In this document: positions 22,713-39,860 of the stretch, one piece after another
How positions within the stretch are numbered: the first letter of the stretch is position 1
Layout of the letters: each line of letters opens with the position of its first letter
From: Oscillospiraceae bacterium
Lineage (GTDB): Bacteria; Bacillota; Clostridia; Oscillospirales; Oscillospiraceae
Direction: 5' to 3'
Assembly: GCA_009787995.1 (NCBI GenBank)
Contig: WQSH01000014.1
Coordinates: 1-40,256 of the forward strand
Length of the DNA: 40,256 nt
The notes under the pieces: generated by a model
The model's input: the letters and a program-made list of their open reading frames with translations, nothing else
The model's database searches: none
Told to the model about the DNA's origin: nothing
Position numbers and translations under genes: made by a program

Positions 22713-23339
22713 ATGATTGAAATTAAGAGAAAATCTGTAATTCCCATCTACGGCGTCGCAGTGCTTTGGGCTTTATACTGCTTGATTTTCCCCCTGTTCC
22801 GCACTTGGCACCTTGTCGTCCTGGCCTGTTCCGGAGTGCTCGCATATGCAGTTTTGACCTTAATTTTCCCCGGCAAGGTCGAGCTCATAGAAGTTCCTGA
22901 AGAGCCCGAGCGCACGGGCGATGAAAAAATAGACGCCCTTCTTGCCGAAGGCGAAAAGGCTGTTTCAGAAATGAGCAGGCTGCGCGAATCGATTCCGGAC
23001 GAGGATGTGCGGCTCAAGCTTGATGAAATAATCCCTGTCACAGATAGCATTTTTAAGAAGCTGCTTTATGAACCGGGCGTGTACAAACAGGTTAGGCGCT
23101 TTGCCGACTATTATCTCCCAACGACTATAAAGCTGCTTCACACCTACGACAGGTTCGGCAAAAGCGGTTCGGGCGGCGAAAATATAATGGGTACGCTCAA
23201 GCAAATAGATTCGGCTCTTGACGCAATTTTGTCTAGTTATAAGAAATTTTTTGATTCGCTCTTTGCCGATAGGGCATTGGATATTGAAACCGATATTGAT
23301 GTTTTGGAAACTATCCTAAAGAGGGACGGCTTGCTCTAA
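22713..23339 (+). CDS. xpaC: XpaC-like protein (5-bromo-4-chloroindolyl phosphate hydrolysis family)
   Basis: The protein has 208 residues. Two membrane segments lie near 11-30 and 32-52, followed by a charged, helical cytoplasmic part with the family pattern KIDALLAEGEKAVSEM and IDSALDAILSSYKKFF. The family was named from a Bacillus phenotype; it is not an established phosphatase and its function is obscure. It is commonly paired with telA, as here (63 bp apart), and the pair is linked to envelope stress and tolerance of toxic anions or antimicrobials. The ATG follows GGAGAGG. It is the first gene of a four-gene plus-strand cassette. Confidence 0.87.
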   Translation: MIEIKRKSVIPIYGVAVLWALYCLIFPLFRTWHLVVLACSGVLAYAVLTLIFPGKVELIEVPEEPERTGDEKIDALLAEGEKAVSEMSRLRESIPDEDVRLKLDEIIPVTDSIFKKLLYEPGVYKQVRRFADYYLPTTIKLLHTYDRFGKSGSGGENIMGTLKQIDSALDAILSSYKKFFDSLFADRALDIETDIDVLETILKRDGLL

Positions 23340-23402
23340 ACACTAGTTATTTCGTATACGCTAGAAGCGTGTTCCCAAATAAATGAAAAAGGAGATTTAC
23401 TT

Positions 23403-24575
23403 ATGCAGGATGTTAGCGCTATGGAATATGTCCCAAGCCTTACGCTTGACCCAAACGGCACAAATGCTCCAAAGGCTCCCACGCTTCCTGCCGAGGATGC
23501 GCTTGAGGTGAAAACGGCAGACTCGGCTGCCCAGCTCGATATTAGTCAGCTCAGCGAGGAGGAGCAGAAGGTTGTCCTCGATTTTGCCGCTAAAATCGAC
23601 ATAACCGACACGAATGCAGTGCTTACCTACGGTGCGGCCTCGCAACGGAATATTGCCAATTTTTCGGAAAACACGCTCAAGAATGTACGAACGAAGGACA
23701 TGGGCGAGGTCGGCAACATGCTCTCAAGCTTGGTTGTCGAACTCAGGGGCTTTTCGGGGACCGGGGACGAGAAAAAAGGGCTCTTGGGAATAAAGAGGAG
23801 GGTTCGCAATCGCATAGCGGCGCTCAGGGCCGAATATGCCAAGGTTTCTACAAATGTGGACAGGATTTCCGAAATGCTTGAGAAGCACCAGGTGATTTTG
23901 CTCAAGGATGTGGCGATGCTTGACAAGATGTATGACGTCAATCAGGCGTATTTTAAGGAACTAACCATGTATATCATCGCAGGCAAGCAAAAGCTTGAGG
24001 AATGCATGAGTATCGAACTCCCAAAGCTCCAGAAAAAAGCGGCTGAGAGTGGCACTCCGGAGGATGCGCAAGCGGCAAACGACTATGCAAATATGATTAA
24101 CCGCTTTGAAAAGAAGCTGTACGACCTCGAGCTCACACGCATGGTATCGATTCAAATGGCTCCGCAAATCCGGCTTGTCCAAAACAATGACACGCTGATG
24201 ATTGAGAAAATCCAGACATCCATCGTAAACACAATCCCGCTGTGGAAAAGTCAGATGGTCCTTGCGCTGGGCATGCACAATGCGCAAAAGGCTATGGAGG
24301 CACAGCGCGAGGTGACGAATATGACCAATGAGCTGCTCACGAAAAATGCAGAGCAATTAAAAATGGGCACGATTGAGATTGCAAAGGAGTCAGAGCGCGG
24401 GGTCGTCGATATGGAAACCCTTGCAAATACAAACCAGCGCCTAATCGAGACGCTCGAGGAAGTGCGGTCTATACAAAGCGAGGGTTCACAGCGCCGCCGC
24501 TCTGCCGAAGTCGAGCTGGGGCGCATTGAGGGCGAGCTGAAGCAAAAGCTGCTTGAAATTAGGGACAATAGGTAG
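23403..24575 (+). CDS. telA: TelA/KlaA-family toxic anion resistance protein
   Basis: The protein has 390 residues, mostly long helices with coiled-coil character and no membrane segment. Regions typical of TelA are the NMLSSLV...RGF stretch, KGLLGIKRRVRNRI (about 121-134), and the central QMAPQIRLVQ and TIPLWKSQMVLALG segments. TelA proteins are linked to tellurite and cell-wall antibiotic tolerance; the mechanism is not known. AAGGAG lies 8 bp before the ATG. It sits between xpaC and a LemA-like gene, the usual context, and likely works with them at the membrane. Confidence 0.92.
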   Translation: MQDVSAMEYVPSLTLDPNGTNAPKAPTLPAEDALEVKTADSAAQLDISQLSEEEQKVVLDFAAKIDITDTNAVLTYGAASQRNIANFSENTLKNVRTKDMGEVGNMLSSLVVELRGFSGTGDEKKGLLGIKRRVRNRIAALRAEYAKVSTNVDRISEMLEKHQVILLKDVAMLDKMYDVNQAYFKELTMYIIAGKQKLEECMSIELPKLQKKAAESGTPEDAQAANDYANMINRFEKKLYDLELTRMVSIQMAPQIRLVQNNDTLMIEKIQTSIVNTIPLWKSQMVLALGMHNAQKAMEAQREVTNMTNELLTKNAEQLKMGTIEIAKESERGVVDMETLANTNQRLIETLEEVRSIQSEGSQRRRSAEVELGRIEGELKQKLLEIRDNR

Positions 24576-24616
24576 GGGCGCTTGGCGCTTAGTTTTGGAG
24601 AGTGCGGGGTTTTTCG

Positions 24617-25189
24617 ATGAAACTGCTAAAGAACAGGGGCTTTGCGGCGCTGGTGTCCGTTGTTGTAATCATTGCCGCTACTTTGTTTGGCGTGTATAAT
24701 AGCGCAAGCCGCGTTTCGCAGGATATTGAGGCTATGTTTTTCGACGGGGTGTTTCTCGATGACCAGGGCTTTACCCAGCCGGGCATATACTCGCATCTGG
24801 TGAACATCTCAAATGCCACGCTGGGGCTTGTGCCGATTATGGAGGGCTACCCCGGGTTGTCAGGCATAGCGGATGAGCTTATGTCTGCAAGACGACAGCT
24901 CTTGGCTGCGGGTAGCATTGCGCAAAAGGAATCTGCGGCACGCGCACTAAGAGACAGCGCCGCTAATTTGCGGGATGCTTCAGAGACTGCGGAGCTAACC
25001 GAGCGGGATAGGGAGGCTATGGCGCAGCATTTGTCCACAATTAACGGGGCATTTATTGCAATTGGCAATTCTCGCTATAATGGTGCCGCCGAAGAGCGGC
25101 TATCGGCTCAAAGCCCTATTTTAAGGCAAATCAGCAGCTTCCTATCGGCAAGCCGGCCATACTTTTTCCACGTGCCGCCACTTAGCTAG
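24617..25189 (+). CDS. LemA-like membrane-anchored protein
   Basis: The protein has 190 residues from the ATG at 24617 (GGGG 7 bp upstream; an in-frame GTG at 24602 abuts the only other purine run). One N-terminal membrane segment (about 8-27) is followed by helices. The stretch LVNISNATLGLVPIMEGYP and the end SRYNGAAEERLSAQSPIL resemble the LemA pattern (LVxxVxGY and YN-x-x-V), but similarity is modest. LemA genes regularly precede TPM-domain genes, as here, which supports the call. The function of LemA in bacteria is unclear. Confidence 0.65.
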   Translation: MKLLKNRGFAALVSVVVIIAATLFGVYNSASRVSQDIEAMFFDGVFLDDQGFTQPGIYSHLVNISNATLGLVPIMEGYPGLSGIADELMSARRQLLAAGSIAQKESAARALRDSAANLRDASETAELTERDREAMAQHLSTINGAFIAIGNSRYNGAAEERLSAQSPILRQISSFLSASRPYFFHVPPLS

Positions 25190-25269
25190 GGTGTGGCTTA
25201 TCAGGATAGGAACCATGGATATGAGGCGGGGGCTTGCGTGAAGCCTCCGAAAGGATTGGAGGGTATGTT

Positions 25270-26259
25270 TTGAAAAAACTGTTTACTAGCATCTTAGCCA
25301 TTTTGTTTCTTGCGCTTATCGCTATGCCCGGAGCGCTTGCGATAGTGGAGCGTAGCGAAGAGTTTTTTGTCAATGATATGGCAGGCGTGCTGACCGAGGC
25401 CACCCGAAGCGACATTATTTCAGCAAATGTCGATTTGATGGAGAGAGGGCAGGGCGCACAGGTCATTGTCGTCACGGTTCAGTATCTGGATGGCATGTAT
25501 GCGGATGAGTTTGCCATGCGGCTATTCAACGACTGGCAGGTTGGCAGCGCAGAGCACAATAACGGCATGCTGCTGCTTTTGGCGACGGAAGAGCGAAGGG
25601 GTGGGCTGATACCCGGGGCAGGCATCAGCGGCATTTGGAACAATAGCAGAATCAATAACACCCTAAACACTTATTTTTGGCCGGAGGTCGATAATGGCAA
25701 CTTCGACACAGCCGTCCGCAATATTTGCGAGGTGCTTTTTTCGTGGTTTGCTTCATATTACGGCATAGAGCAAATCGGGAGGTACTACCCACAAGAGGAT
25801 TTCTTTCTCCAGGTTCAGCGCGCATACGAACAGATGGCGATTTTCTCAATGATTATACCGTTTTTCTTAGTTGCTTTTATAGTCGTTATCGCCATAGTTT
25901 CGTCTGTTGGCGCCGATAGGGCTAGGTTCAGACAGTACCATATGCACATGGGGCTTCCTATGCCCACCTATCATTGGTGGTTTATCATGGGCATGCGACC
26001 GCACCGTATGTGGCATAACGCCCATTGGCGCGGCGGCCCTCGCGGGCGCGGCGGCTGGGGCGGCGGTGGCTGGGGCGGAGGCCCGGGCGGGCCTCGCGGG
26101 CGCGGCCCGGGCGGACGCCCTCCCGGCGGAGGTTTCGGTGGCGGCAGCAGGGGAGGCTTTGGCGGCTTCGGCGGAGGTGGCGGTGGCTTCGGAGGTCGAG
26201 GGGGCGGAGGCTTTGGCGGCGGCGGCGGCTTCGGTGGCGGTTTCGGCGGCAGAAGGTAA
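25270..26259 (+). CDS. TPM-domain membrane protein with Gly-rich C-terminal tail
   Basis: The protein has 329 residues from a TTG at 25270, with GGAGGG 6 bp upstream. A signal peptide (1-24, ending GALA) is followed by an extracytoplasmic TPM domain (about 30-165, opening EEFFVNDMAGVLTEA). A membrane segment lies at about 190-213, then a His/Met/Trp-rich stretch at 223-253, and a tail (254-329) made almost only of Gly, Arg, Phe, Trp and Pro. TPM proteins with Gly-rich ends usually adjoin LemA; some TPM proteins act as phosphatases or in photosystem repair, but the bacterial role is unknown. The tail should be cytoplasmic if the signal is cleaved and the second segment spans the membrane once. 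Confidence 0.88.
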   Translation: MKKLFTSILAILFLALIAMPGALAIVERSEEFFVNDMAGVLTEATRSDIISANVDLMERGQGAQVIVVTVQYLDGMYADEFAMRLFNDWQVGSAEHNNGMLLLLATEERRGGLIPGAGISGIWNNSRINNTLNTYFWPEVDNGNFDTAVRNICEVLFSWFASYYGIEQIGRYYPQEDFFLQVQRAYEQMAIFSMIIPFFLVAFIVVIAIVSSVGADRARFRQYHMHMGLPMPTYHWWFIMGMRPHRMWHNAHWRGGPRGRGGWGGGGWGGGPGGPRGRGPGGRPPGGGFGGGSRGGFGGFGGGGGGFGGRGGGGFGGGGGFGGGFGGRR

Positions 26260-27027: not shown

Positions 27028-27996
27028 CTAAAAGCTCAGTAACGCTGACATCAGCTGCTCTGAGCTTTTGTATCTTTTAGCAGGCTCTTTTTGCACCGAT
27101 TTTTCAATTATGCCTGCGATGCCTGCGGAAAGCCCCCCATTGCGCATGAGGTCGTGTAAACGCCCAGCAGGATGCTCGCCTGTCAATAAATGGAGCATTG
27201 CCGCACCCAGGCTGTATATGTCGGAGCGCTTCCAGTCGACGCGCAGCGTTGTGTCCGGCAGTTCTGTGTTTATTGAAAGAGGATGCAAGCTTAGTTTGCC
27301 TGATCGCCGGATTGTATTAGTTAGCTCTGTTTTACTGTCGCACTCTAAAAGCTGCGTCTCTACGCAAGACTGTGTAAGGCTTGCACCCTTTTGGGGAGGC
27401 TTTGCCGCGTTGCGCACCTCTTTTGCATTTTCGCACCGTCTGAAAAGCTCCGATTGCTCCGGCGAAGCATAGCCATTGCTGCGGCTGCACAGGTTTAGCC
27501 TGCTTCCTCTGACGAATGCGGCATTAAAATCTATCAAGCACACATCCCCATTCGGGGTCAGCACTATATTCGCAGGCTTTATGTCGCAGTGGCAAACATC
27601 TTGCTTATGCATGACCACAAGAGCCGCTGCAAGCTGCTTGTACCACTCTATCACATTAGCTTCTGCAAACCTTTTACACTGCGCAAGCCGCTTGTCCAAA
27701 CTCTCACCCTCGATGAAATCGAGAATAGTATAGCACCGGTTGCCATCTGACAAGAAATCATAGACCTGGGGGACAAAGGGACATTTGATGTTTTTCAGCG
27801 CCTCGACCTCATTGCGCTTTATTTCAATGTCTGCCGCCTCGGAGTTTCTAAGCGCCTTCACTGCCACATACTTATGCAGGCGTTTGTGCCAAGCTTTGTA
27901 GACAATGCCGCTGCCGCCCGAACCTAGCAAGGATTCAATACGGACAGTGCTATTTAGTTGCGATCCAAGGCATGCTATGCTTTCTGCAATTTGCAC
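27028..27996 (-). CDS. Serine/threonine protein kinase, variant active site
   Basis: The protein has 322 residues from a GTG at 27996, with GGTGAG 6 bp upstream; an upstream ATG at 28113 would overlap the FHA gene by 70 bp. Gly-loop GSGGSG (25-30), VAVK with Lys47, catalytic loop HCDIKPAN with Asp138 and Asn143, metal-binding DFN at 156-158 in place of DFG, and SPE at 178-180 are present. About 75 residues of low similarity separate SPE from SDIYSLG (258-264), far more than usual, and the C-lobe ends soon after. No membrane segment or PASTA repeats, so it is cytosolic, unlike PrkC. All residues essential for phosphotransfer are present. It is the last gene of the Tad locus, next to an FHA protein that is its likely partner. 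Confidence 0.88.
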   Translation of the reverse strand: MQIAESIACLGSQLNSTVRIESLLGSGGSGIVYKAWHKRLHKYVAVKALRNSEAADIEIKRNEVEALKNIKCPFVPQVYDFLSDGNRCYTILDFIEGESLDKRLAQCKRFAEANVIEWYKQLAAALVVMHKQDVCHCDIKPANIVLTPNGDVCLIDFNAAFVRGSRLNLCSRSNGYASPEQSELFRRCENAKEVRNAAKPPQKGASLTQSCVETQLLECDSKTELTNTIRRSGKLSLHPLSINTELPDTTLRVDWKRSDIYSLGAAMLHLLTGEHPAGRLHDLMRNGGLSAGIAGIIEKSVQKEPAKRYKSSEQLMSALLSF

Positions 27997-28043
27997 GTTA
28001 ATCTCACCCCCATCTAAGTTCCTGGCATTAGAGCTATTGCCCC

Positions 28044-29459
28044 TTACGCCTCCCAAACGTAATCCGCTCCGGAATTTCCGAAAGAAATGCGATCTCCGCT
28101 TGCCAGCTTGCATGGCGTGTTCGAGAGAATTTTTTCATCATTGATAAATGTTCCGGCACTCGATGCCAAGTCAATGATACTGTAGCCCCTTTTGTCTCTC
28201 TCAATTGCGGCGTGACGACGGCTAACCGCCTTTGTGTCCCTGTCAAATTCAAAGTTTGACTGAGGCCTGCCGACAGATGCGTCATATCTCCCTATGGTGA
28301 AAACCTGGCCTTCTTCAATACAAACATCAATGGCTATGGGAAAATGCGGGCGCCCGATGCTATACAGCCTTGTGCAACTGGCACTTACAGCAACATTCTC
28401 TGTAGCATAGCTATTTTCCGGTATCGCCTCTATTGTTGGCGCCGCATCAAAGCTCACAATTTCAGAACTCCGGAATTCGTTGTTCCCCGGCGTGCCTGCC
28501 CCCGATTCGGTGAGCAAAAGCGGCTCTTCGATATGCATAGCTCCGACAGCATCCGGATGCATGCCTTCAGGCGGCTCAACGACTTTTTTTTTGCTAAACA
28601 GCCCTCCAAACCTACTGCTCCCCTTTGATGCTTTTTTATTAGCTTTTGCTTTCTTTTCCTTAGCTTTTGCTTTCCTTTTCTTAGGCTGCGATTCTTTTTC
28701 CGAAATGTCGATGACTACATCCCCCATGTCATAAGACCGGCTTTCGTGCGGCTTGATTGCAGTCTCTTTTGCCTGTGCTGACACCTGTGCGCTCTGCGCT
28801 GCAATTGGAGCGGCGGCTTGAGCAAGAATCAGCCCACTATTGGCGGTGCCTTCAAGCTTTTGCGCGCCAAACTCTTCGCACTTCGAAACACCCACCTCTT
28901 TATCTGCGTTCTTGATTCCCCCGCCAACTGTCAGCTTTAGTATCTGCAACAAATCATTTGGGTCAAACCTTTTCATAATTGCGCGCAAGACTTTGTTTTC
29001 CAAATGTGCGTCTTCGACTGAAATCAGTTTTGAAATGTCTGCGGCAAGTTCCCTGAGCTGGCTGTGGCAGGATATGTCGGTTTTTGATGGGATGTATATG
29101 TAGTTGATGCTCCGCTTCTCTTTGTCATAATATAGATGCTCTGCGTCCAGCAGGAACGAGTATGGCCGCATGAACCAGTCCCCGCAATCTGATAAGGGGC
29201 TGAGAACGCTGCTCCAAAGCTCCGCATACTCATCAGGCTGGCGGCTGCCCGTCAGGTATTGCAATTTGCAATACAACCCAATCTGATAGATAAGCTCCAC
29301 TTCTCCATCTATGCATACATATCGGAACGGTAATATAAAGGGCGGTTTGTCGGCTTGGATTGTATATAGCGCTTTTTTGTCTAGTTCATCCCCGGGAATC
29401 CTTATTATCAGCGTTGCGCCTGTCAAAATGTCATTTTTATATTCGATGTGGTAACTCAT
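28044..29459 (-). CDS. DUF6382-FHA domain protein
   Basis: The protein has 471 residues. The N-terminal part (about 1-180) resembles DUF6382, found in Clostridia with FHA domains. A low-complexity linker includes a Lys-rich block (about 258-290, KKRKAKAKEKKAKANKK) and acidic segments. The C-terminal FHA domain (about 380-471) shows FTIGR, SRRHA and the N-D loop (GTFINDEKI), so phosphothreonine binding should be intact. FHA modules read the output of Ser/Thr kinases; the kinase gene is immediately downstream. AGGAGG lies 8 bp before the ATG. It is 12 bp after the WG-repeat gene. The role is inferred to be a phosphorylation-dependent adaptor for the pilus machine. Confidence 0.87.
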   Translation of the reverse strand: MSYHIEYKNDILTGATLIIRIPGDELDKKALYTIQADKPPFILPFRYVCIDGEVELIYQIGLYCKLQYLTGSRQPDEYAELWSSVLSPLSDCGDWFMRPYSFLLDAEHLYYDKEKRSINYIYIPSKTDISCHSQLRELAADISKLISVEDAHLENKVLRAIMKRFDPNDLLQILKLTVGGGIKNADKEVGVSKCEEFGAQKLEGTANSGLILAQAAAPIAAQSAQVSAQAKETAIKPHESRSYDMGDVVIDISEKESQPKKRKAKAKEKKAKANKKASKGSSRFGGLFSKKKVVEPPEGMHPDAVGAMHIEEPLLLTESGAGTPGNNEFRSSEIVSFDAAPTIEAIPENSYATENVAVSASCTRLYSIGRPHFPIAIDVCIEEGQVFTIGRYDASVGRPQSNFEFDRDTKAVSRRHAAIERDKRGYSIIDLASSAGTFINDEKILSNTPCKLASGDRISFGNSGADYVWEA

Positions 29460-29471
29460 GCTATCGTCCTC

Positions 29472-30770
29472 CTATTTGTATTCAAGCAATGTGATAATTT
29501 GCCATCCGCGCTCTGTCAGCACCGGAGCGCTTCCATTTGAAAAACTCCTTGCTGCTGCAAATTGTGGTTCTATTACAATTTGCCCATATCTGCTTATGTA
29601 GCCCCAACTCTCTCCAACCTTGACAGCCGCCAGATGCTGCCCGAAGGATAGAGCGTCGTCAAATACAAAACCTATCACCTCCACCCCATTTGTGTCTATG
29701 AATCCCCACTTTCCATTTCTTTTTGCCGCAGCATACCCCTCCCTTGAAAAAGGACGGGCATCCTCATAAGGGCCTCCGATTTTCTGTCCGTCAAAAATCA
29801 TGAAAACTTCATCCCCGCTCACCACAAAGATAGCGCCTTGGGCATAGCTGCGGCCAAGCCCATCCATTATGACCCCATCATATTCCGGCGGTACGAGCCA
29901 ATTCGTCCCACGGTCAATCACTCCCCATCTTCCGCCTATCTTGGCTGCCGCATAGCCCCCTGAGTATGTCCCCAGTTGTTCAAACTCGGCATTCCCAACC
30001 TGAAAATCCCCATTTGCACGACGCCAGCTTCCTTCAATGAGCAAGGAGATGCGGCTGTCGGTAAAATTGCCTATGTCCTCTGCGCGTTCCCGGAGCAAGG
30101 CAATGCGATTATTGCCCCTGTCTACCGCAAAAATCTCGCCATCCTTGATTACGATGGCTCTGTCAGAACTAAATGTGCTGACTTTTTCATACTCGCTGGG
30201 TATTAGCGCGACGCCGTTTGCCCTTGCTATTCCCCAGAGCCCATCTCGTTGTACCTGGACTGTGCCGTTGTATATTTCTGATACATATTCATAGGACGTG
30301 CGTATTGATTCAAAGGCATATCTATGGTTCTCATACATGGCGGCAAGATTGCTGCATCCCGTTTTAGTAATCCCTGCCCTAAGGGTGGCCAGCGCCTCGG
30401 GCACTCTAGACCTGCTCAGGAAGTGGTTTGCCGCCTCAGCAAAGACGTCAGCTTCGGCGTCCCGCCTGCTCATTTGACTTTCTAGCAGCGATATGTATCT
30501 TCGGTTGAACCCCCTATTATCAATAAGTGCCCGATAAGCCAGCTTAAGCCAAGCTTCAGCCGCCAAAGTATGCCTGGCGTTGTATCCGGCAGCCTCTTCT
30601 AGAAGCGGCACTGCGCGGATGTATATCCCATCATTTATTAGCTCGGCAGCTTGGGTGATAAGAACTATTTGCTTCTCGGCTGTCGAGCGGGCGCTGATTG
30701 TGACTATCCAAGATGTCAGCAGGAGCAGTGCGCACCCGGCTCCGATTAAAATTCGAACACGCTTTTTCAA
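29472..30770 (-). CDS. WG-repeat protein with N-terminal membrane anchor
   Basis: The protein has 432 residues from a TTG at 30770 with GGAGG 7 bp upstream. A positively charged N-terminus and one hydrophobic segment (about 7-25) anchor it, with the rest outside. Residues about 30-160 are helical, TPR-like. The C-terminal half carries at least four WG repeats: DGLWGIARANG, GGRWGVIDRG, NGKWGFIDTNG and GESWGYISRYG. WG repeats form a beta-propeller-like or solenoid fold and probably bind partners or wall components; the function is not known. Its position between the prepilin peptidase and FHA genes suggests a sensor or scaffold of the pilus system. Confidence 0.85.
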   Translation of the reverse strand: MKKRVRILIGAGCALLLLTSWIVTISARSTAEKQIVLITQAAELINDGIYIRAVPLLEEAAGYNARHTLAAEAWLKLAYRALIDNRGFNRRYISLLESQMSRRDAEADVFAEAANHFLSRSRVPEALATLRAGITKTGCSNLAAMYENHRYAFESIRTSYEYVSEIYNGTVQVQRDGLWGIARANGVALIPSEYEKVSTFSSDRAIVIKDGEIFAVDRGNNRIALLRERAEDIGNFTDSRISLLIEGSWRRANGDFQVGNAEFEQLGTYSGGYAAAKIGGRWGVIDRGTNWLVPPEYDGVIMDGLGRSYAQGAIFVVSGDEVFMIFDGQKIGGPYEDARPFSREGYAAAKRNGKWGFIDTNGVEVIGFVFDDALSFGQHLAAVKVGESWGYISRYGQIVIEPQFAAARSFSNGSAPVLTERGWQIITLLEYK

Positions 30771-30784
30771 TTGGACACCTCCAT

Positions 30785-31339
30785 TTATTGCATAAAAACA
30801 GTTACCAGTATCCCTGCATACAAGAAGGGCACAAGCGGAATAGGGTCTTTTCTCCCAATCCTTTTGAGCAAAATAAGCCCTAATCCGACCAGCGCCGCTA
30901 AAACCGTACCAATAAAAATGCTGGATATTGTCCCCCCAAGCCCCAAGAACAGCCCTGATGCGGCCATGAATTTCACATCGCCCCCGCCCAACCCCTTGCG
31001 GCTGAGCACATATACAAGCAGGAACATCCCGCCGCCAATCGCAAACCCCAGCGCCGAGTCCGAAAGAAGTGCAACTGCCGGCCCTGTGTCAAAGAGAAGC
31101 TTCGAGGTCATAGTCAGAAGCCAAGCCGCAAGCATCGCTAAGACAAGCATGTTAGGCACTTTTCTTGCCTTTAAATCGAGGACTGCTGCAAAGTACCCAA
31201 AGGCAATCAGCAACTCATGCCAGACTAGCACAAACGCCTCTGTTCTCCCCGCTTTAAGCAGCAGCAAGGCAATCCCCAAAATCGGCAAGCCTATGTATGG
31301 GAGCGTCGAAACCATTTTTCCTTTCGATAAAACGTTCAT
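30785..31339 (-). CDS. tadV: Prepilin peptidase, A24 family (CpaA/TadV type)
   Basis: The protein has 184 residues from the ATG at 31339, which overlaps the TadE-like stop in TGATG; a start 11 codons upstream is less likely. Six or so membrane segments. The two catalytic aspartates of the type IV prepilin peptidases are present: Asp55 in AVLDLKARKVPN and Asp121 in GGGD (118-121). Short A24 enzymes without the N-terminal methylase domain are typical of Tad loci. It should cleave the Flp1 pilin and the TadE-like pseudopilins encoded upstream after their conserved glycine. Confidence 0.92.
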   Translation of the reverse strand: MNVLSKGKMVSTLPYIGLPILGIALLLLKAGRTEAFVLVWHELLIAFGYFAAVLDLKARKVPNMLVLAMLAAWLLTMTSKLLFDTGPAVALLSDSALGFAIGGGMFLLVYVLSRKGLGGGDVKFMAASGLFLGLGGTISSIFIGTVLAALVGLGLILLKRIGRKDPIPLVPFLYAGILVTVFMQ

Positions 31340-32034
31340 CACCAATACCCCCTTCCGCTGCCGTTTAGCCATGCCTTTGTCACGGCAGTCTGTGTTATGC
31401 GGAGAGTCGGGCTGAAGGGGAGCGGCAGAGCTCCAAATGTGTATTCAACCTCATATTCCACTGTTAGCCTAACATTGCCGTCTTTATCCAATAGCTCCGA
31501 GCGGGCAAAATCAAGCCCTGCCCCCGCACCTACGACCCGCACGCTACGCAGGTATTCTTCTCCCATCATGTCGCCATTTTTCAGATACCTCATAGTCAAT
31601 GGGCGCACCAAGAGGTTAAATGCCTGGCCTTGGAGATTGAATCTCTCAATGCCCAATAGTTGCGAGATCACCGCTCGCGGATCTCCTACGGCAGCCTCGT
31701 CCGCACTATGCAAGAGACCTAGCGCCTCGCCTATAGAAGAGAGCGACTCAATCCCGCTGAGCACCGCATTTACCCCATCCCGCAATTCGTTTGCAGCTTT
31801 TGGCGCTTTATCAGCTTTGTCGGCTAGGGCGGTCAGGTCATTTGCTATACCTGTCACTTCCAGCATGTAATTGTACACCGACATGGTCTTTGCAGTCTGA
31901 GTAAGCGCATAATGCACACGAGCTTGAAGCGTCACGATATTCACTAAGCTCAAAATCGAAACAACAAGCAAAACAAAAGGAATAAACGCACAGACCGTCT
32001 CAACAACAATATACCCTTTCTCATCATCACACAT
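31339..32034 (-). CDS. TadE-like minor pseudopilin (second copy)
   Basis: The protein has 231 residues from the ATG at 32034, preceded by GGGGGGG at 6 bp. The N-terminus reads KGYIVVE with Gly7 and Glu12, the Gly/Glu(+5) prepilin signature, followed by a hydrophobic stretch to about 32. The remainder is extracellular and of low similarity. It overlaps the prepilin peptidase gene by 1 bp. The role is a minor subunit of the Tad pilus, perhaps in initiation or at the tip. Confidence 0.78.
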   Translation of the reverse strand: MCDDEKGYIVVETVCAFIPFVLLVVSILSLVNIVTLQARVHYALTQTAKTMSVYNYMLEVTGIANDLTALADKADKAPKAANELRDGVNAVLSGIESLSSIGEALGLLHSADEAAVGDPRAVISQLLGIERFNLQGQAFNLLVRPLTMRYLKNGDMMGEEYLRSVRVVGAGAGLDFARSELLDKDGNVRLTVEYEVEYTFGALPLPFSPTLRITQTAVTKAWLNGSGRGYW

Positions 32035-32088
32035 AAATATCCCCCCCAATGAGCAAACAATTCCTGCTAACTGTCAACGGTCAATCGC

Positions 32089-34635
32089 CTAATATCCCCT
32101 GTGCTCCGTAACCCTAATCGGCATTGCGAGAGGCATCCCTATCCCCCTCGAATCTGAGAAGTTTTGAGCAAAGGCCATCGACAGAAACAGCATGCGCAGG
32201 TCTACTGCAGTCGTCAAGCTGAAATCTGTTTTCATCTTAGCAAGCTCGAACCTGTTCGGGCGTGCCAGGGCTTCCGCCATCATACCCTCGTCGGCAGTGC
32301 TCCCACTCTCAAAATTGACAATGTTCCATTCGATAAGATTGCCCGCACGCCTTGCCAGCTCTGTCGCCGCATTTCCGTCACTGCCTGTATAGAACACTGC
32401 CCTTGTCAAGAAGAAAAACATCATGTAGCCGATGTATGAAAACCCTTTCTCGTCATTAAAACCGCTCCCATCAACGCTTCCGTCAGAAATCACTCTGGTT
32501 GCGGCGGCCAGCACGCCGCGCGGCGTGCATATCCACTGCCCTGCTGCGGTATTCTTAAACAATGGGACCCTGTGCCCTGAGCGGAGCGCTGCAACGTCGA
32601 CAACCGATTCGGCAGCAACAAATGCGGCGCGCGCCAGCTCTCCCAATATAACTGCTAGCGGAGGCGCCCACGCAAAGGCCGCTTTGATGCTTGTGACGAT
32701 AGCTGTGACCTCCGGCACACTGAACACTTTAATGTAATTGCACACAAGCCGGACTAATAGCAAGAGCCTTGTTACTGCACTCAAGTTCGTTGAGGCATTG
32801 TCGCTGCCATTGTAAAGGTACTCCAGCTCTGACTGGTAGAAATAATTTGCCTTAGGGCTCATTGGGACGCCGTTTAGGTTCTTGTCAAAATCTGCTTCGT
32901 TAAGACTACTCAGGGTCTTTCCGACCGATTCCGGCTTTGATGTTGAATAATTTGAAAACATGTAAGAGCAGTACGTCAGCAGCAGAACATAGTCGCCGGC
33001 ATTTGCCAAGCTGCCCAATGGGTCGTCCATGATGTTCAGCACGGGGGAGGCAACCGCTTGGGGGATAAGCTTTAAAACATCCAAAATGTTTACATCCTCG
33101 GCTGCAGGCGTTGCGGCATCATTTATATACATCGCTCCAAGCGGCTCGTTCCTGAGCCCATTGTAAGCTTTGTGGGCGAGGTCGAGCAACTCGGTTATGA
33201 GGTTGCGCTGCTGTTTCTCAGAATTTGCCCCAGCAGCATCAGGCTGTCCGTCATAAAGCTTGACGGGGGGCAGAGGCGGCTGATTCATCATTGCGTCAAG
33301 TTCTGCAAAGAATGCCGCATTGTCTCCGGGGTGCTCCGCAAATCGCAAGAATCCGGGGAGCATCCTGTATGTAACATTGTCTCCGGGAATACTGGCGAAA
33401 AACATAGCAAGGTTCATCGGGCCGATATTAAACCTGCTATCGGAGGGCAGGTTTGTAAGTTCTTCAATAGAGAGTCCGGGTCCGCTTTCATTCAGCCTGT
33501 TCCTATATCTCACCTCATCCAGCATGGGCTTGTGGATGTCGTCGATATAGCTGTAGCCGCCGTCTCTGAAAACTATGGCCATAGGTTCGATAGCCCAGCT
33601 TATGATACTGCGGTACTGACTGATTAAAGAGCTTGGCGGGTCGCCTTGAGCTTGTGTAAAAGCACTCCTGAGTTCTTCGCTGATTTCTCCATTGTTGACC
33701 CTTTGCTCAAAGTCGTCGATTTTTATGCGGAGTGCATCCTTCATCGTATCGAGTTCCCTGGCGAGCGTAACAACCAGGTCAAATCTTGGTTTGAAATTAT
33801 CAGCCTGCCGTTTTGCATTTTCAATCGCCTGAATGAGCCCGGTGCGTCGGCTGCCGACGGTCAAAGCGCTGATATTTTGCCGACGTGCCTCGTAGAGGGA
33901 TTCAATATGCATTCTTTCCATGGGGGTCTGCGCTTGCATGTATGCAATATTGAGGGTGGCCAGTGAAAGAAATTCCCCATGTATCTCTGTTAGGACGCTT
34001 GACATAAACCCGAAGGAGCCTCCTGCGATGCCTCCTATCGCTTGTGTACACCTATCGGCGGCGGATATTGCAGTGTGGAGTTCCTTGTATTTTTCATGTA
34101 TGTCGGCAATTGCAGAATCAATTCCAAGCTTGTCGTTTATTATGCGGGAATCTGCAACGATTTTGTTGTCGGTAAGCCTCTCTAAAAGCTCCTGTACAAG
34201 CAGCACCGGCCCGCGGAATTTCATGTACTCTTCTATTTGCCTCCGCAGCACATCTTCGTTGCGGAGGTTTTTGTCCTCGGGGAAGTATGGCTCTTCCAGT
34301 GTAATATTTGAGCCATAGAATATCTGAAAGGTGCCAAGAGATCTATCCTGATGCTCCTCCCCAAACACCGCAACCTTAATATAATCGTCCAATAATTTCC
34401 AAAGTATCGGGTCGTCCTCTGCAATGCCCATAATGCCATATATGTCGTATAGCAACGCTTTGTATTGCGTAAGCATTGTGTTTGCAGCCAGTTGGTTTGC
34501 ATTTTGTATCGTGCTGTGAGCCGTGTGGATGCGAGCCAAATCAACTGCGGTCCCGCTGATAAGCATAGCGGGAATGAGTAGCAGCGTAATAAAAACCGTC
34601 ACCGCACCCTTGGTGTCCCGAACAAATCTCCGCAT
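32089..34635 (-). CDS. DUF5702/TadG-like large pilus-associated protein
   Basis: The protein has 848 residues from the ATG at 34635 (TAGGGGGC upstream). The N-terminus DTKGAVTVFITLLLIPAMLIS resembles a TadE/TadG signal, with Gly10 and a hydrophobic stretch but no Glu at +5. The next region, VDLARIHTAHSTIQNANQLA, is typical of DUF5702 proteins of Clostridia Tad loci. A very long extracellular part with several hydrophobic patches follows. The large size and position among pilin genes suggest an assembly or surface-exposed component. Cleavage by the peptidase is uncertain without the glutamate. Confidence 0.8.
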   Translation of the reverse strand: MRRFVRDTKGAVTVFITLLLIPAMLISGTAVDLARIHTAHSTIQNANQLAANTMLTQYKALLYDIYGIMGIAEDDPILWKLLDDYIKVAVFGEEHQDRSLGTFQIFYGSNITLEEPYFPEDKNLRNEDVLRRQIEEYMKFRGPVLLVQELLERLTDNKIVADSRIINDKLGIDSAIADIHEKYKELHTAISAADRCTQAIGGIAGGSFGFMSSVLTEIHGEFLSLATLNIAYMQAQTPMERMHIESLYEARRQNISALTVGSRRTGLIQAIENAKRQADNFKPRFDLVVTLARELDTMKDALRIKIDDFEQRVNNGEISEELRSAFTQAQGDPPSSLISQYRSIISWAIEPMAIVFRDGGYSYIDDIHKPMLDEVRYRNRLNESGPGLSIEELTNLPSDSRFNIGPMNLAMFFASIPGDNVTYRMLPGFLRFAEHPGDNAAFFAELDAMMNQPPLPPVKLYDGQPDAAGANSEKQQRNLITELLDLAHKAYNGLRNEPLGAMYINDAATPAAEDVNILDVLKLIPQAVASPVLNIMDDPLGSLANAGDYVLLLTYCSYMFSNYSTSKPESVGKTLSSLNEADFDKNLNGVPMSPKANYFYQSELEYLYNGSDNASTNLSAVTRLLLLVRLVCNYIKVFSVPEVTAIVTSIKAAFAWAPPLAVILGELARAAFVAAESVVDVAALRSGHRVPLFKNTAAGQWICTPRGVLAAATRVISDGSVDGSGFNDEKGFSYIGYMMFFFLTRAVFYTGSDGNAATELARRAGNLIEWNIVNFESGSTADEGMMAEALARPNRFELAKMKTDFSLTTAVDLRMLFLSMAFAQNFSDSRGIGMPLAMPIRVTEHRGY

Positions 34636-34663
34636 AATGCCCCCTAATCCAGACAAGGCTGCC

Positions 34664-35299
34664 TCATAACCCCAGCAATTCCCGCACTCTTGCACCTGCC
34701 GAACTTATGCTGCCCGCCAAATCTGTTAAGCCAAATCGGTTCATAACGAACTGACTGAAATCGACTGCCATGTCCATACTCCGCAAAAACTCATCCCCAT
34801 TTTGCGCCACCGCCGTAGCCGACACAGCTATGTGTATGCTGTTGGGGAATCCCACGAAGGACAAATCAACAGGCATAGGCAGCTCCCGAACAGCGTTTAC
34901 AACAATCTCCCTATACACAATGCGGTCATTGACAAAGCACTCCACATCCAAAGTTCCAAGTTTTGAGCTTAAATTACGCCCCTCAATCTCGATAACGATT
35001 TTTTCTCCGAGTTCCTGCACCTGCACGTCCTCTATGCCCGAGAGCAGCGCCACATAGACATTGTCCAGATTGCCCTTGTTTGTCTCCCAGTAATGCGACA
35101 TTATACCCTCGTCAAAGAATATCCACGTGTCGCTCTCCACGGTCGCAAGCGACGTTGCGGCATGTTGGGTTGCGCGCTGCAACGCCGCCCTTGTCGGAAG
35201 ATAAATCGAAAGCAGGACTAACGCCGCAAAAATCATAATCATGATAGGAAAGAGGATGGCCGCCTCGACGAACGCCTGCCCTTTTTCGTTTTTAATCAT
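34664..35299 (-). CDS. TadE-like minor pseudopilin (first copy)
   Basis: The protein has 211 residues from the ATG at 35299, with AAGGGGTGG 5 bp upstream. KGQAFVE gives Gly7 and Glu12, matching the prepilin peptidase signature, followed by the hydrophobic helix AAILFPIMIMIFAALVLLS. The extracellular part is beta-rich. TadE-like proteins are processed pseudopilins required for Flp pilus assembly. It is 28 bp before the DUF5702 gene. Confidence 0.82.
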   Translation of the reverse strand: MIKNEKGQAFVEAAILFPIMIMIFAALVLLSIYLPTRAALQRATQHAATSLATVESDTWIFFDEGIMSHYWETNKGNLDNVYVALLSGIEDVQVQELGEKIVIEIEGRNLSSKLGTLDVECFVNDRIVYREIVVNAVRELPMPVDLSFVGFPNSIHIAVSATAVAQNGDEFLRSMDMAVDFSQFVMNRFGLTDLAGSISSAGARVRELLGL

Positions 35300-35365
35300 T
35301 TTGGCCACCCCTTCTCTCCCACTTGGCAGCACCGTGCGATTTATGCGCCGCCGCCGGTTTGCCCT

Positions 35366-35587
35366 TTAAGATATCTGTTCTGCTTGCCCTGTGATTTGCT
35401 CCCATAAATCTTCTAACCATCCGCTTAGGGATCCCCATATGATCACAATGGCCAGTACTGCTACAAGAATCAGCAGTATTGCGACAACCACCCCTGAAAG
35501 TCCGCGCTCGTCCTTTTTCAAGGCTCCTGCCCTGCCAGCCAATGCGAAATATGCCGCCATAGGAAGACCGGATATTTTTTGCATCAT
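35366..35587 (-). CDS. Flp1-type major pilin
   Basis: The protein has 73 residues from the ATG at 35587 (an adjacent ATG at 35584 is equally possible), with AAAGGAGG 10 bp upstream. A longer open frame continues upstream but has no site and overlaps tadC. DERGLSGVVVAILLILVA places a charged segment and Gly29 before a 22-residue hydrophobic helix, as in the Flp1-like pilin family; there is no Glu at +5. Cleavage after Gly29 would leave a 44-residue pilin. It should be the main subunit of the Tad pilus, exported by TadA/B/C. Confidence 0.82.
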   Translation of the reverse strand: MMQKISGLPMAAYFALAGRAGALKKDERGLSGVVVAILLILVAVLAIVIIWGSLSGWLEDLWEQITGQAEQIS

Positions 35588-35634
35588 GACTAATCCACCT
35601 CCTTTCCATGTTAATTTGCACAAAAGCGCATCGA

Positions 35635-36687
35635 TTAGATTCCCGAGAAATTCATTGCGACCGGTACCATAAGCATTATCAAAATTGCCAGAAGCAAAAG
35701 CATAGTTGGAATCATCAGTTTGGAATTGGCCTTTTCCGCATCGCGTTTTGCCATATGCCTGCGCTCCTGCCACGCCTCCCTTGCCATCTCCTTCATCAGC
35801 CTGCTAATCTCGGCATTCCCCTTTGCCAGGTTTTGCATAATGGCGGAAGCCAGCTTTGCAGTTTCCTTTGTGTTGCAGCGGTTTATAAAATTGCTATATG
35901 CCGCTTCCGGGCTGACCAAATTGTCAAGTTCCTCAGAGGTCTGCTGCATTTCCTTGTATAGCTCCGCCTCTTGGCTGCATGCGGTTTCCTTCCATGCCCT
36001 ATCCATAATCATCCCGGAAGTCACAAGCAACGCCAGTTTTGACACAACATTTGGAAACTGCTTGCTGATTGCGACACGCCTCTTTTTCACCTTGTCATGC
36101 AGTTCGTCGTACATAGCATAGGCCAGCACCAACACCAATATACTGCCAAGCCCGAGGATAGCTGCGCCGGCTGTCGAGTTATCTGTTCCAAGGAGAATAG
36201 CCCCGCATACGAAAGTTATGGCAACGCCAATTATAGGGTAGGACAGGAGCCTTGCAAGCAGCTGCTTTGTTTTGCATGCTGCATGTTTTTTTCCGTAGAG
36301 TTCATAGCAGTTTGTCATAATGGTCTTATGGAGCCCACCCTTGCCGATGCTGTCAAATTCGCGCAATAGCACATAACCGGGCATTTGGAGCACGTTGACG
36401 CTGCGCAGGTCGCCTCGCTGCAGTCTAATATTGTCGTACTCCAGCTTTTTAATCTTCTTGCTGCTCCCGGGCAGAGCAAACTTGATGTCGTGCGCAAGCA
36501 GCCCGCAGTATCTCGACAGCTGTTCGTGCCTGCGCTTTTCTTTTAGTTGTATTTTCTCGATAGAGGCAAAATTTTCAAGCACTTTGTTATATGCCGCCTC
36601 AATCCAATCCTCCCTAGCCACCCTTCCCAGCAATATTAGCCAAGAAGCCATCAGCAATGTGGCAAAAATCATAATAACAATAATCAT
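35635..36687 (-). CDS. tadC: Tad pilus inner-membrane platform protein TadC
   Basis: The protein has 350 residues. A membrane segment at the N-terminus, two near 145-190 and one at the C-terminus (about 325-345) frame a type II secretion F-family cytoplasmic domain (KRRVAISKQFPNVVSKLALLV and the AKGNAEISRLMKEMAREAW segment). TadC and TadB form the platform on which the ATPase TadA acts. AGGAG lies 8 bp before the ATG. It follows tadB by 16 bp. Confidence 0.92.
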   Translation of the reverse strand: MIIVIMIFATLLMASWLILLGRVAREDWIEAAYNKVLENFASIEKIQLKEKRRHEQLSRYCGLLAHDIKFALPGSSKKIKKLEYDNIRLQRGDLRSVNVLQMPGYVLLREFDSIGKGGLHKTIMTNCYELYGKKHAACKTKQLLARLLSYPIIGVAITFVCGAILLGTDNSTAGAAILGLGSILVLVLAYAMYDELHDKVKKRRVAISKQFPNVVSKLALLVTSGMIMDRAWKETACSQEAELYKEMQQTSEELDNLVSPEAAYSNFINRCNTKETAKLASAIMQNLAKGNAEISRLMKEMAREAWQERRHMAKRDAEKANSKLMIPTMLLLLAILIMLMVPVAMNFSGI

Positions 36688-36703
36688 ACGTAACGCTCCT
36701 AAG

Positions 36704-37492
36704 CTAAAGCCTAACCCTGCTAAACTTCCGTGCTAATAAATAACTTAGCACGAACACAATGAGCCCCCCTGTGGAAACAACCCTCCCTATCCCCGACGTG
36801 TATATCGCATCCAAGAACCCTGCTCCCGCATAGCCTATGACGCCAAGGATAACAAGCGGCATAAGCAGCATTATGTTGACCTCAGATTTCGCGGCTGTCA
36901 TCAATGTGTCTATCTCCATTTCAATTTCCATTTTATCGGCGATTATTTGCTGTATTTCCCTAACAAGCTCGTCCGCTCGTCCGGATTTCCCCTCTATTGT
37001 GGAGTAGATAGTCGAGAAGCTCGCCACATCCTCAAGCCCACTGCGCCTTGCAAAGTCTGCGAAAGCCTCGGATAGCGGCACCGCATTATTAAACTTCCCA
37101 ATAATAATATCCAGCTCCGCAATGATATCGCTGCCTTCCGGATAAATGAGCATCAAATCTTCGCGTGCGCTCTGCAAAGACTTAAGCATAGTGCCCCCCG
37201 CCCGCATAGAGACAGACATCGCCTCCAAAAGATCAAAAAACTGAATTCGGAGTCTAAATCTCCGTTTTTTGACAGCATTGTGGGCAGAGATAAAAACATT
37301 GACAAACCCCACTGCAGCTCCACCGACAATCGACAACGCAAAAATCTTGTAAAAGATGTAAATTATCAAAAAGCCAATAACAAAACCAACCAAGCACGAC
37401 ACAACATGATCCAAAGCCACGCGCGAGCTCCGTGAATAATCAACAGCACTAGCGCCGGCACTGTCCTCAGATTGCTGTAACTGCCAAGACAT
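36704..37492 (-). CDS. tadB: Tad pilus inner-membrane platform protein TadB
   Basis: The protein has 262 residues from the ATG at 37492 with GGAGG 10 bp upstream; a GTG three codons earlier is too close to that site. Two membrane segments near 30-70 and two at the C-terminus surround the F-domain (FFDLLEAMSVSMRAGGTMLKSL and FARRSGLEDVASFSTIY). It is the partner of TadC. It lies 39 bp after tadA. Confidence 0.92.
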   Translation of the reverse strand: MSWQLQQSEDSAGASAVDYSRSSRVALDHVVSCLVGFVIGFLIIYIFYKIFALSIVGGAAVGFVNVFISAHNAVKKRRFRLRIQFFDLLEAMSVSMRAGGTMLKSLQSAREDLMLIYPEGSDIIAELDIIIGKFNNAVPLSEAFADFARRSGLEDVASFSTIYSTIEGKSGRADELVREIQQIIADKMEIEMEIDTLMTAAKSEVNIMLLMPLVILGVIGYAGAGFLDAIYTSGIGRVVSTGGLIVFVLSYLLARKFSRVRL

Positions 37493-37531
37493 AACCCCCA
37501 CCCCTCCGAAACTCAGCCAATTGTGAATTAC

Positions 37532-38812
37532 CTAAACTACCCTGCTAACCCCCGCTACATTCAGCTTGAAAGTATTCCTCAGGGCATTTGACGTCCTTGT
37601 CAGCTGCCCCACAACCTTGCTCTTTGTGCTCAGTTCGGATTCCCTGAATTCGTAGAGCGGGTTTAGCTGTATCTGCCTCTTATGAACATCAAAGTTCAAA
37701 ACCTCCACTATTTCCATAGTCCTGCGACTTTTGTCGCGCAGCCGCGAAAGGTGGATAATAATATCTATCGACGAGGCGATTTGCTGGCGTATTGCGTCAA
37801 GTGGCAAACCGTCCGCACCTTGGAGTATCATCGTTTCAAGGCGGCTTAGAATATCAAAAGTCGAATTTGCGTGCCCGGTCGATAGCGAGCCATCATGCCC
37901 GGTGTTCATCGCTTGAAGCATATCCAGGGCCTCTGCGCCCCGAACTTCCCCGACGACAATCCGCTCAGGCCTCATCCTCAGGGCTGACTTGATGAGGTCA
38001 CGGATGGTAACTGCACCCTTTCCGTCAGCGCCTGCGTTGCGGGTCTCGAGGCGCACAAGGTTGTCGATGTTCTTGATTTGAAGTTCTGCCGAATCCTCAA
38101 TTGTGATTATCCGCTCATCCCTCGGTATGAAATTTGAAAGCGCATTGAGGAACGTCGTCTTCCCGCTTCCCGTCCCGCCGCACACGAAAATATTGTACTT
38201 TGCCGTCACCAAAAGCTTGAGCACTTCGGCGACTTCAGTTGTAATCGAGCCGAATTCGATGAGCCTCTCTACCGTCATTGCCTCCTTTGGAAACCGCCGT
38301 ATCGTCACAATCGGTCCGTTGAGAGCAATCGGCGCCATCACAACGTTGACACGAGAGCCATCATCGAGCTGGAAGTCTACAATTGGGTCGCTTTCGTTGA
38401 CAGCCCTCCCTGCTCTTGATACAAATTTGGTTATTATAATCTCCAACTCCCGGCGACTTTCAAATTTTCCGTCGCTTTTGTATAGCGCACCATCTTTTTC
38501 GACGAAGATGTTCTGATGCCCATTTATCATAACTTCGGTCACCTCGGGGTCGGCGATAATCCTGCCGAGGACGCCAAGCCCGCGAATTGACTCGAATACG
38601 GCAAGGGTAATATGCCTCTTATCCCTGAAATTCAGCGATGCAAGCTCCGGATTGGAGTCCTGCAAGTCATCCCTAGCCCGTCTGATTTTATCCTCAAGCG
38701 CCTCCGCTACAAGGGCTTGAAGCTGGTCGTTGTCAAAATTGGTAAGGTCTGCATGGTCTTGAACTTCCGATTTGATTTGGCTGACAAGCCCATTTCGCAT
38801 CTGCTCTGTCAT
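37532..38812 (-). CDS. tadA: Tad pilus secretion ATPase TadA/CpaF
   Basis: The protein has 426 residues from the ATG at 38812 (AGGGGTG 6 bp upstream). The open frame continues 78 codons further but overlaps tadZ, so it is not used. Walker [10 protein letters not shown] (212-220), Asp box ITIEDSAEL (236-244), Walker [10 protein letters not shown] (284-292) and His box [11 protein letters not shown] (305-315) are intact. It is a hexameric ATPase that drives assembly, and possibly retraction, of the Flp pilus. The N-terminus lacks the long extension of some CpaF proteins. Confidence 0.95.
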
Positions 38813-38837
38813 ATGCTTCACCCCTATGCAACGTTTG

Positions 38838-39848
38838 CTATATTTCCAAGCTGGCGGAAAGTGTCTTGTAAACTGTCGTTGGATCGGTTGAGAGCACAAC
38901 CGGAAGCCTGAGAAACGCCCCACTAAAGTGTGTGTCGGCTTCTGCGCCTTTGTTTGCAACAAACAGGGCCTTGTCCTTGATGCTCTCGAAGACATTATGC
39001 TGTGATGTAAACTGTGAGAGCTTGACCTCTGCCGTCGCCGTAGCATCGCTCACAATTAGCACCTTGTCCGCAAGGTCAAACACCTTCCTGGTCCGCCAAT
39101 CGCAGACACAGGACATGTCTATCACCAGCTCGTCCGTCACCCCTGCGCATACGGTGGTAAGCTCGGCGATGTTTTCGGCCGACAGCGCATACATGTCGTC
39201 AAAGTTTTCGGGGCGGCAAAAGTAGCCGACGCCCGCCCCTCTGTCTTGCTGGGATATGCCGCGTATGAGCATTTTAATATTCCCCTCGCCGCTATCAAGC
39301 ATCTCAAATACCGTGCTTATGCTCTTTCCGTTTTCGTAGAAGTAAGCAGGCACGCTTGAAAAAGGCTCTAAATTTAGATATAAAACTTGCTTGCCCTCCG
39401 ATACTTTCTTCGCTGCATAGGAGAGCGCAACGGTGGTCTTCCCCACGCCCCCCGCAGGCGACCAGACTGCGGTAACACATGCCCTTTCCGAATGAGAGCC
39501 TCGCCCATATTGCGAGACTCTGGCGCATTTTGCAAGTATCTCCGACACAATTGACGACACCCTCTGATACCTGCTAAGTTCGCTCAAGTGTGCCGGTGCG
39601 CCTGCTTCGCCAGTCCTGTCCGCACTCAATAGTAGCGGAAGGGCAATTGTGCTCAAATCTGCCCCTTCGGCAAAATCTTCGTCAAGCAGGGCGACATCGA
39701 ACTTCCGGGCTTTTAGCATTTCGCACAAGCGCTCCTGCGTACGGCAAGCGCTCACATCGATTACGTCTGCATAATGCTCCGATATGCTGTTTGACAAGTG
39801 CTCTACATAGTCTGCTTCGCATGATGCGATGAGTAGTTTTATTTTCAT
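38838..39848 (-). CDS. tadZ: TadZ/CpaE-like ParA/MinD-family ATPase
   Basis: The protein has 336 residues from the ATG at 39848; AAGGA lies 12 bp upstream. An ATG four codons earlier is only 1 bp from that site. An N-terminal receiver-like domain (about 1-80, DVALLDED at 51-58) is followed by a deviant Walker A SPAGGVGKTT (130-139) and a MinD-like ATPase fold. TadZ proteins place the Tad machine at a cell pole or site. It is the first gene of the locus and lies behind a candidate promoter at 39916-39944. Confidence 0.88.
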   Translation of the reverse strand: MKIKLLIASCEADYVEHLSNSISEHYADVIDVSACRTQERLCEMLKARKFDVALLDEDFAEGADLSTIALPLLLSADRTGEAGAPAHLSELSRYQRVSSIVSEILAKCARVSQYGRGSHSERACVTAVWSPAGGVGKTTVALSYAAKKVSEGKQVLYLNLEPFSSVPAYFYENGKSISTVFEMLDSGEGNIKMLIRGISQQDRGAGVGYFCRPENFDDMYALSAENIAELTTVCAGVTDELVIDMSCVCDWRTRKVFDLADKVLIVSDATATAEVKLSQFTSQHNVFESIKDKALFVANKGAEADTHFSGAFLRLPVVLSTDPTTVYKTLSASLEI

Positions 39849-39860
39849 ATCAATAACCAT

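Follow-up and report, generated by a model that had tools for sequence, protein, structure and literature searches.

Gene content of the Tad locus

Contig WQSH01000014.1 of an Oscillospiraceae bacterium (contig C14 of genome G000, a draft of 2.42 Mb in 163 contigs) was analysed over its whole length of 40,256 nucleotides, hereafter the window. From position 39848 down to 27028, its minus strand carries the gene run of a monoderm Tad pilus and then genes for a WG-repeat protein, a DUF6382-FHA adaptor and a Hanks-type Ser/Thr kinase, a combination that probably equips the pilus with a phosphothreonine switch. An earlier note on this DNA had claimed the same gene content and same-strand order, and the minus strand does carry all of the genes it named, close to where it had put them. 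Other loci and genomes are referred to below by our own numbers (L and G).

The run opens with tadZ (38838..39848), whose product combines an atypical receiver with a ParA/MinD-type ATPase (PF21194, E = 6e-6; AAA_31, 6.2e-5). Its PF21194 score is below the curated cut-off (27.0 versus 27.4 bits), so that the call rests on synteny with relatives; by eye, the start at 39848 suits Shine-Dalgarno spacing better than that at 39860. Next come tadA (37532..38812; PF00437, T2SSE, 1.4e-54), encoding a pilus motor ATPase of 426 amino acids from the start that is common to the relatives (mostly 425–430 amino acids), and the platform protein genes tadB (36704..37501; PF00482, T2SSF, 1.6e-6) and tadC (35635..36687; PF00482, 1.1e-9). 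The Flp1-like pilin of 73 amino acids (35366..35587; PF16982, 2e-6) is again called by synteny with relatives, its score being below the curated cut-off (27.6 versus 33.5 bits). Further along are the pseudopilin gene tadE (34664..35299; PF07811, 3.1e-6; start picked by hand), a DUF5702 gene (32089..34635; PF18960, 4e-20) whose product has a Tad-type N-terminal helix (PF13400, 6.9e-4), a tadF-like pseudopilin gene (31339..32049) and a prepilin peptidase gene (30785..31339; PF01478, A24, 2.1e-13). The TadA-type ATPase, both T2SSF platform proteins, TadE and the prepilin peptidase all score over their Pfam cut-offs. Where the earlier note had counted two TadE-like genes, the Pfam family bears out the first; the second had no meaningful match in the Pfam scan and is called TadF-like by its position and N-terminal hydrophobic helix only, although it is kept in relatives.

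The last three genes encode the WG protein (29472..30770), the adaptor (28044..29459) and the kinase (27028..28056 from a TTG start; open reading frame from 28113; PF00069, 4.4e-34). With starts picked by hand, the gaps from tadZ to the FHA gene are, in order, 25, 30, 16, 47, 66 (33 from a GTG), 28, 39, −1, 14 and 12 bases, and the kinase gene starts inside the end of the FHA gene, the overlap being 13 nt from the TTG at 28056 and 70 nt in the longest open reading frame. The genes are tightly packed, and the '12–47 bp gaps' of the earlier note are thus approximate. The WG and FHA genes have good ribosome-binding sites. Scans for promoters (16 versus 15.8 expected by chance, s.d. 4.2) and terminators (15 versus 14.2, s.d. 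3.4) gave counts at chance level and set no operon limits, so that one transcript for the whole run is plausible.

Convergent with the kinase gene, the window holds XpaC-like, TelA, unknown and TPM-domain genes (22713–26259), and several related loci are likewise flanked by TelA or TPM genes. Besides tadA, a T2SSE search of the genome found one further clear ATPase gene, on contig 12 (G000:C12:21160-21981, L041; 377-amino-acid frame), which perhaps belongs to competence or another type IV filament.

The adaptor, the WG protein and the kinase

The adaptor consists of a DUF6382 domain (residues 1–180, 28920..29459; PF19909, 1.3e-11), a linker and an FHA domain (residues 361–471, 28047..28379; PF00498, 8.7e-16), an architecture also seen in its structure model. 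We model the DUF6382 domain as an EssB/YukC-like pseudokinase fold, without claiming membership of the EssB/YukC family itself: Foldseek matched the model to YukC/EssB (6z0f_A, E = 7.6e-6 over 198 columns; 6z0f_B, 1.8e-5), and hhalign aligned the domain with kinases at E = 3.6e-4, against E ≥ 0.21 for ten controls. A second structural aligner returned FHA matches only among those listed for the adaptor and is uninformative on DUF6382. At the sequence level no link to EssB was obtained, as the adaptor gave no match to the Pfam YukC profile (PF10140) up to E = 1, and hhalign gave E = 0.78 against a mixed set of three EssB-type sequences, of which just two resemble EssB and the third, the L198 frame, seems EssC-like. 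Searched for EssB genes, none of 196 genomes of the class (Clostridia) and three of 299 genomes of the phylum had PF10140 over its cut-off.

The linker is long and poorly conserved (mean conservation 0.23), and its best-conserved column is a threonine directly before the FHA domain (Thr353 in the window, codon 28401..28403), present in 44 of 47 adaptors. The exceptions are L123 (Asn), L168 (a gap) and L144, where a threonine lies a few residues off, probably through a slip of the alignment. Among 105 non-redundant adaptors (a further 21 of 126 could not be anchored and were left out), 71 have an acid-T-hydrophobic pattern before the FHA domain, versus 30.2 (s.d. 4.5) after shuffling and 12 of 98 control stretches; a narrower motif gave 67 versus 21.8. 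The FHA domain model is nearest to DgcB and GarA/OdhI, and the GR, S-x-x-H (SRRH) and N pocket residues are all present in the window; across the 47 adaptors the counts are G 47, R 35 (K in 12), S 40, H 47 and N 29. With its pocket residues kept, the domain is expected to bind phosphothreonine.

The WG protein has a signal anchor, TPR-like helices and WG repeats (Pfam, 1.1e-38, in six stretches). We model it as a membrane-anchored propeller, the predicted structure having one membrane helix and a propeller of eight times three strands; it is this strand count, among other grounds, that supports the call, and not the Foldseek matches, which were weak (large root-mean-square deviations, TM-scores up to about 0.46). 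WG repeats often occur outside Tad loci, and some were found in 39 of 60 relatives.

The kinase lacks a transmembrane segment and retains the catalytic Lys, the αC Glu, the Asp of an HCD motif, the Asn and the Asp of a DFN motif. Kinases elsewhere in the genus have HRD with DFN or DFD, or DYN in L031. A comparison of the window kinase with solved structures gave no match at E = 1e-20, a cut-off that was too strict, and in PADLOC it fits many generic kinase models.

Kinases of a different build were seen at some related loci. Those of L092 (4055–6904), L079 (11173–14271), L029, L094 and L111 are about 945–1036 amino acids long, and in L092 and L079 a PQQ_2/WD40-like part follows a membrane stretch, as if an outside propeller were fused to the kinase. 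Long, secreted-looking proteins, possibly adhesins, are encoded after the kinase gene in L029 (1–2277), L044 (13265–16471), L113 (12951–16471) and L079 (14317–16420), and both of those scanned (L029 and L044) have Ig-like or carboxypeptidase-regulatory-like domains. Beyond the kinase gene of L036 (15632–19298) lie, by eye, two DNA cytosine methyltransferase-like frames and one Vsr-like frame.

Conservation across the genus and class

DUF6382 was found in 18 and DUF5702 in 17 of the 60 relatives, the nearest of which are metagenome-assembled genomes that, judging by their names, we take to come from termite guts. Genomes G012, G013 (just 64% complete) and G018 have neither domain. Wherever contigs allow, the order tadZ-A-B-C-flp1-E-DUF5702-F-peptidase-WG-FHA is kept in the genus, save in L026 (G006:C11), a second and divergent Tad locus of G006, in which TadZ-like and PP2C phosphatase genes separate WG from FHA and extra DNA separates DUF5702 from tadF. 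The WG gene stands beside the FHA gene at all 17 genus loci, and at 11 of them (the window, L025, L027, L031, L032, L034–L038 and L040) a related kinase gene follows directly on the same strand, often overlapping the FHA gene. In relatives, a PP2C gene may lie before tadZ or between the FHA and kinase genes (confirmed by Pfam PP2C_2 in two).

Class-wide, 109 of 391 genomes have both DUF6382 and DUF5702, 18 DUF6382 alone, 12 DUF5702 alone and 252 neither (Fisher, 1e-62, uncorrected for kinship). For 69 of the 72 matching genera, a single DUF6382 locus was then read with profiles built from the genus loci; the rest are the genus of the window and L117 and L118. The FHA profile matched at 67 of these 69 loci (all but L089 and L106), and 59 of the 67 have a same-strand Tad core gene no more than 6 kb away. 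Several of the remaining eight are cut by contig ends; among the eight, L052 has both WG and kinase genes, L094 a kinase without WG, and six have neither. Four loci from genomes with DUF5702 but without DUF6382 (L119–L122) have no FHA gene. Together with the 17 genus loci, these counts go against the case that the earlier note had named as its refutation, the last three genes lying mostly apart from tad genes in relatives.

Kinase and WG genes go together. Among the 59 loci, a downstream kinase was observed at all five with a WG gene versus three of 54 without (Fisher, 1.1e-5, uncorrected for kinship); the kinases are of differing types, and that of L043 is 3.3 kb off. After its FHA gene, L043 (9260–16330) also carries three PP2C-like genes, a further FHA-like gene, zinc-ribbon-like at its start, and two consecutive zinc-ribbon kinase genes. 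Outside this set are L117, L118 and the second loci L113 (WG and kinase) and L114 (WG, no kinase).

A further survey scanned GTDB genomes with a WG alignment. Its 71 loci are thus selected for WG, and they overlap the genus set (L123 is the contig of L028, and L124 that of L023). Tad or FHA genes accompany WG in 54, FHA genes in 51, and 17 have neither. In the 44 WG and FHA loci with 3.5 kb beyond the FHA gene, a kinase occurs in 36 and a PP2C in 25. The records are from Oscillospiraceae and Lachnospiraceae metagenome-assembled genomes, Flavonifractor, Pseudoflavonifractor, Anaeromassilibacillus and one Micrococcales bacterium (KH10, L164), which has a WG-FHA Tad locus beyond the Clostridia with tadC-B-A-Z on the opposite strand. 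The earlier note's placing of the kinase in the module fits these 36 of 44 loci, though less well the genus, where six of 17 loci lack it. The order of outside-binder, reader and kinase to which it pointed is not fixed, because in L168, L182 and L189 the WG gene is apart from the FHA, PP2C and kinase genes. The PP2C genes of relatives, the conserved threonine and the pseudokinase-like fold go beyond what that note had described.

A candidate phosphothreonine switch and its known counterparts

In our view, this monoderm Tad pilus machine probably comes with a phosphothreonine switch encoded at the same locus. The gene content, synteny, WG-kinase association and conserved threonine are observed directly and the folds are modelled; from these we infer steps of phosphorylation and binding, a direction of control and a role for the WG protein. 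A Ser/Thr kinase, here encoded next door, would phosphorylate the adaptor threonine before the FHA domain, and perhaps Tad proteins too; the phosphorylated residue would then be bound by the FHA domain, in cis or in trans, on the pattern of GarA/OdhI and Bdellovibrio DgcB. Binding would alter the contact of the pseudokinase-like DUF6382 domain with the Tad machinery in the cytoplasm (TadA/TadZ), turning pilus assembly on or off, and the optional PP2C phosphatase found in relatives would reset the switch. On the outside, the WG propeller would either report the state of the envelope or pilus or keep the base of the pilus in place. Two of these points are guesses, namely the action of the adaptor on TadA/TadZ and WG as an input.

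Several observations weigh against such a switch. The window kinase has HCD and DFN in place of HRD and DFG, so that the canonical motifs are not matched, and its locus has no PP2C gene. The window threonine site (YATENV) has Val at +3 but misses the strict motif pattern. No kinase gene occurs in six of the 17 genus loci (L023, L024, L026, L028, L030 and L033) or within 7 kb at the WG locus L114, and neither kinase nor PP2C in L123, L124, L126, L129, L134, L164 and L176. Two kinase-less genus loci do show adaptor decay, G017 (L123) having lost the threonine and having NTRH for SRRH, and G004 having lost the whole FHA domain. This is suggestive of a link to the kinase, although two of six versus none of 11 kinase-bearing loci falls short of significance (a hand calculation gave about 0.11), and the other four keep both FHA motif and threonine, so that either another kinase must serve there or the link is loose. 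The survey counts, too, are uncorrected for kinship. Since loci can do without a kinase of their own, the adaptor may also be served by kinases of the PrkC type; the kinase-less genomes G004 and G005 each have one Pkinase match (in frames of 726 and 638 amino acids, respectively) and one PP2C match genome-wide.

In a rival reading, the WG and DUF6382-FHA proteins would be structural or assembly parts of clostridial Tad machines, as EssB is in the type VII secretion system (T7SS), working mainly without phosphorylation and with the kinase a separate, optional regulator; the WG protein could thus belong to the pilus structure. In favour of this, both genes persist at the six kinase-less genus loci, 49 to 51 of the 54 class loci with FHA and without WG have no kinase, in L168, L182 and L189 WG sits among the tad genes away from FHA, and DUF6382 resembles the pseudokinase of EssB/YukC, a core T7SS part. 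Nevertheless, the near-invariant threonine and the retained pocket residues fit phosphate binding, and kinase and PP2C genes recur beside FHA in distant loci, which leaves this reading unlikely in our judgement. We regard as rather unlikely the path proposed in the earlier note, in which WG would bind an outside surface, the kinase would respond, the FHA domain would read the mark and pilus assembly would follow. The WG model, in which a propeller is joined to a single membrane helix, suits such surface-contact sensing, as do those WG-locus kinases that have a PQQ/WD40-like outer part along with a transmembrane stretch; the window kinase, however, has no such stretch, there is no evidence for a ligand, and WG is retained where the kinase is lost. 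Finally, the patchy occurrence of the kinase in the genus and its match to many generic PADLOC models could mark an unrelated passenger, for example of a defence type, inserted at the convergent gene border. We find this highly improbable given the related kinases directly after FHA at 11 genus loci and those at the same position in other families; the locus surveys disfavour it, along with the reading that the three genes usually lie elsewhere.

If the locus does encode a phosphothreonine switch, many Clostridia hold a dedicated one in their pilus locus, centred on a single residue (Thr353) and a single pocket; DUF6382, as yet a domain without assigned function, gains a fold and a role; and one logic joins the regulation of Tad pili, T7SS and the type VI secretion system (T6SS). 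On/off switching of monoderm Tad pili is not settled in the literature covered. It is possible, though we put it forward tentatively and would sooner doubt it, that DUF6382-FHA proteins serve envelope machines of Clostridia in general, as pseudokinase adaptors switched by phosphothreonine, driving, with kinase and PP2C, Tad pili and some T7SSs (where it would replace EssB), and that clostridial Tad pili are switched post-translationally by a cis FHA-phosphothreonine latch with the WG propeller as outer input.

Monoderm Tad (Tfpc) pili are known in Bifidobacterium breve and Micrococcus luteus (PMC6916266). They share with the window two minor pilins, a prepilin peptidase, a pair of platform proteins and an ATPase, as well as the pilin and TadZ, which in the window are called by synteny; the window adds DUF5702, WG, DUF6382-FHA and the kinase, and the relevant passages of PMC6916266 mention no FHA or kinase (0 occurrences in the paper). 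The pairing of FHA with the Tad motor is already known in another form, the FHA-CpaF fusions (class III CpaF) of mostly betaproteobacteria (PMC12019362), in which the FHA domain is fused to the ATPase, whereas here it belongs to a separate adaptor in Clostridia. A threonine N-terminal to the FHA domain is shared with GarA/OdhI (PMC2784874) and DgcB (6hc1), and OdhI is phosphorylated by several kinases (PMC2784874); unlike in GarA/OdhI, the window threonine, known from its sequence, is separated from a preceding DUF6382 domain by a long linker to which it belongs.

DUF6382 and FHA in one protein, as in the window adaptor, is already known from TseJ and TsfJ of T7SSe and T7SSf, and T7SSe also holds a kinase (TseD) and a PPM phosphatase (TseF); a receiver domain like that of TadZ is present in TsfV, and T7SSg and T7SSh adjoin Tad genes (PMC11217815). 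The machine here, in contrast, is a Tad pilus, at which we noticed no T7SS gene (the aimed search of G000, with PF10140 alone, gave no match), and the passages of PMC11217815 concerned neither link DUF6382 to Tad nor give it a pseudokinase-like fold. Should DUF6382 be pseudokinase-like, TseJ and TsfJ could replace EssB. Open-licence full texts yielded one paper on DUF6382 and nothing on DUF5702, on 'WG repeat' with 'pilus' or on 'Flp pili' with 'FHA domain', and wider searches of titles and abstract starts, also open-licence, nothing on this locus; as far as these searches go, the Tad-linked WG-FHA-PP2C-kinase set with its conserved threonine is undescribed in the open-licence literature.

As with the PpkA-Fha-PppA system of T6SS (PMC5995506, PMC12607579), a kinase and an FHA protein stand here beside an envelope machine, joined by a PP2C phosphatase in relatives of the window. 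The T6SS is a different machine, and the set at the window locus, known here from genes, is incomplete for want of the phosphatase. The best reading of the locus is a Tad-linked switch comparable to the T6SS threonine-phosphorylation pathway.

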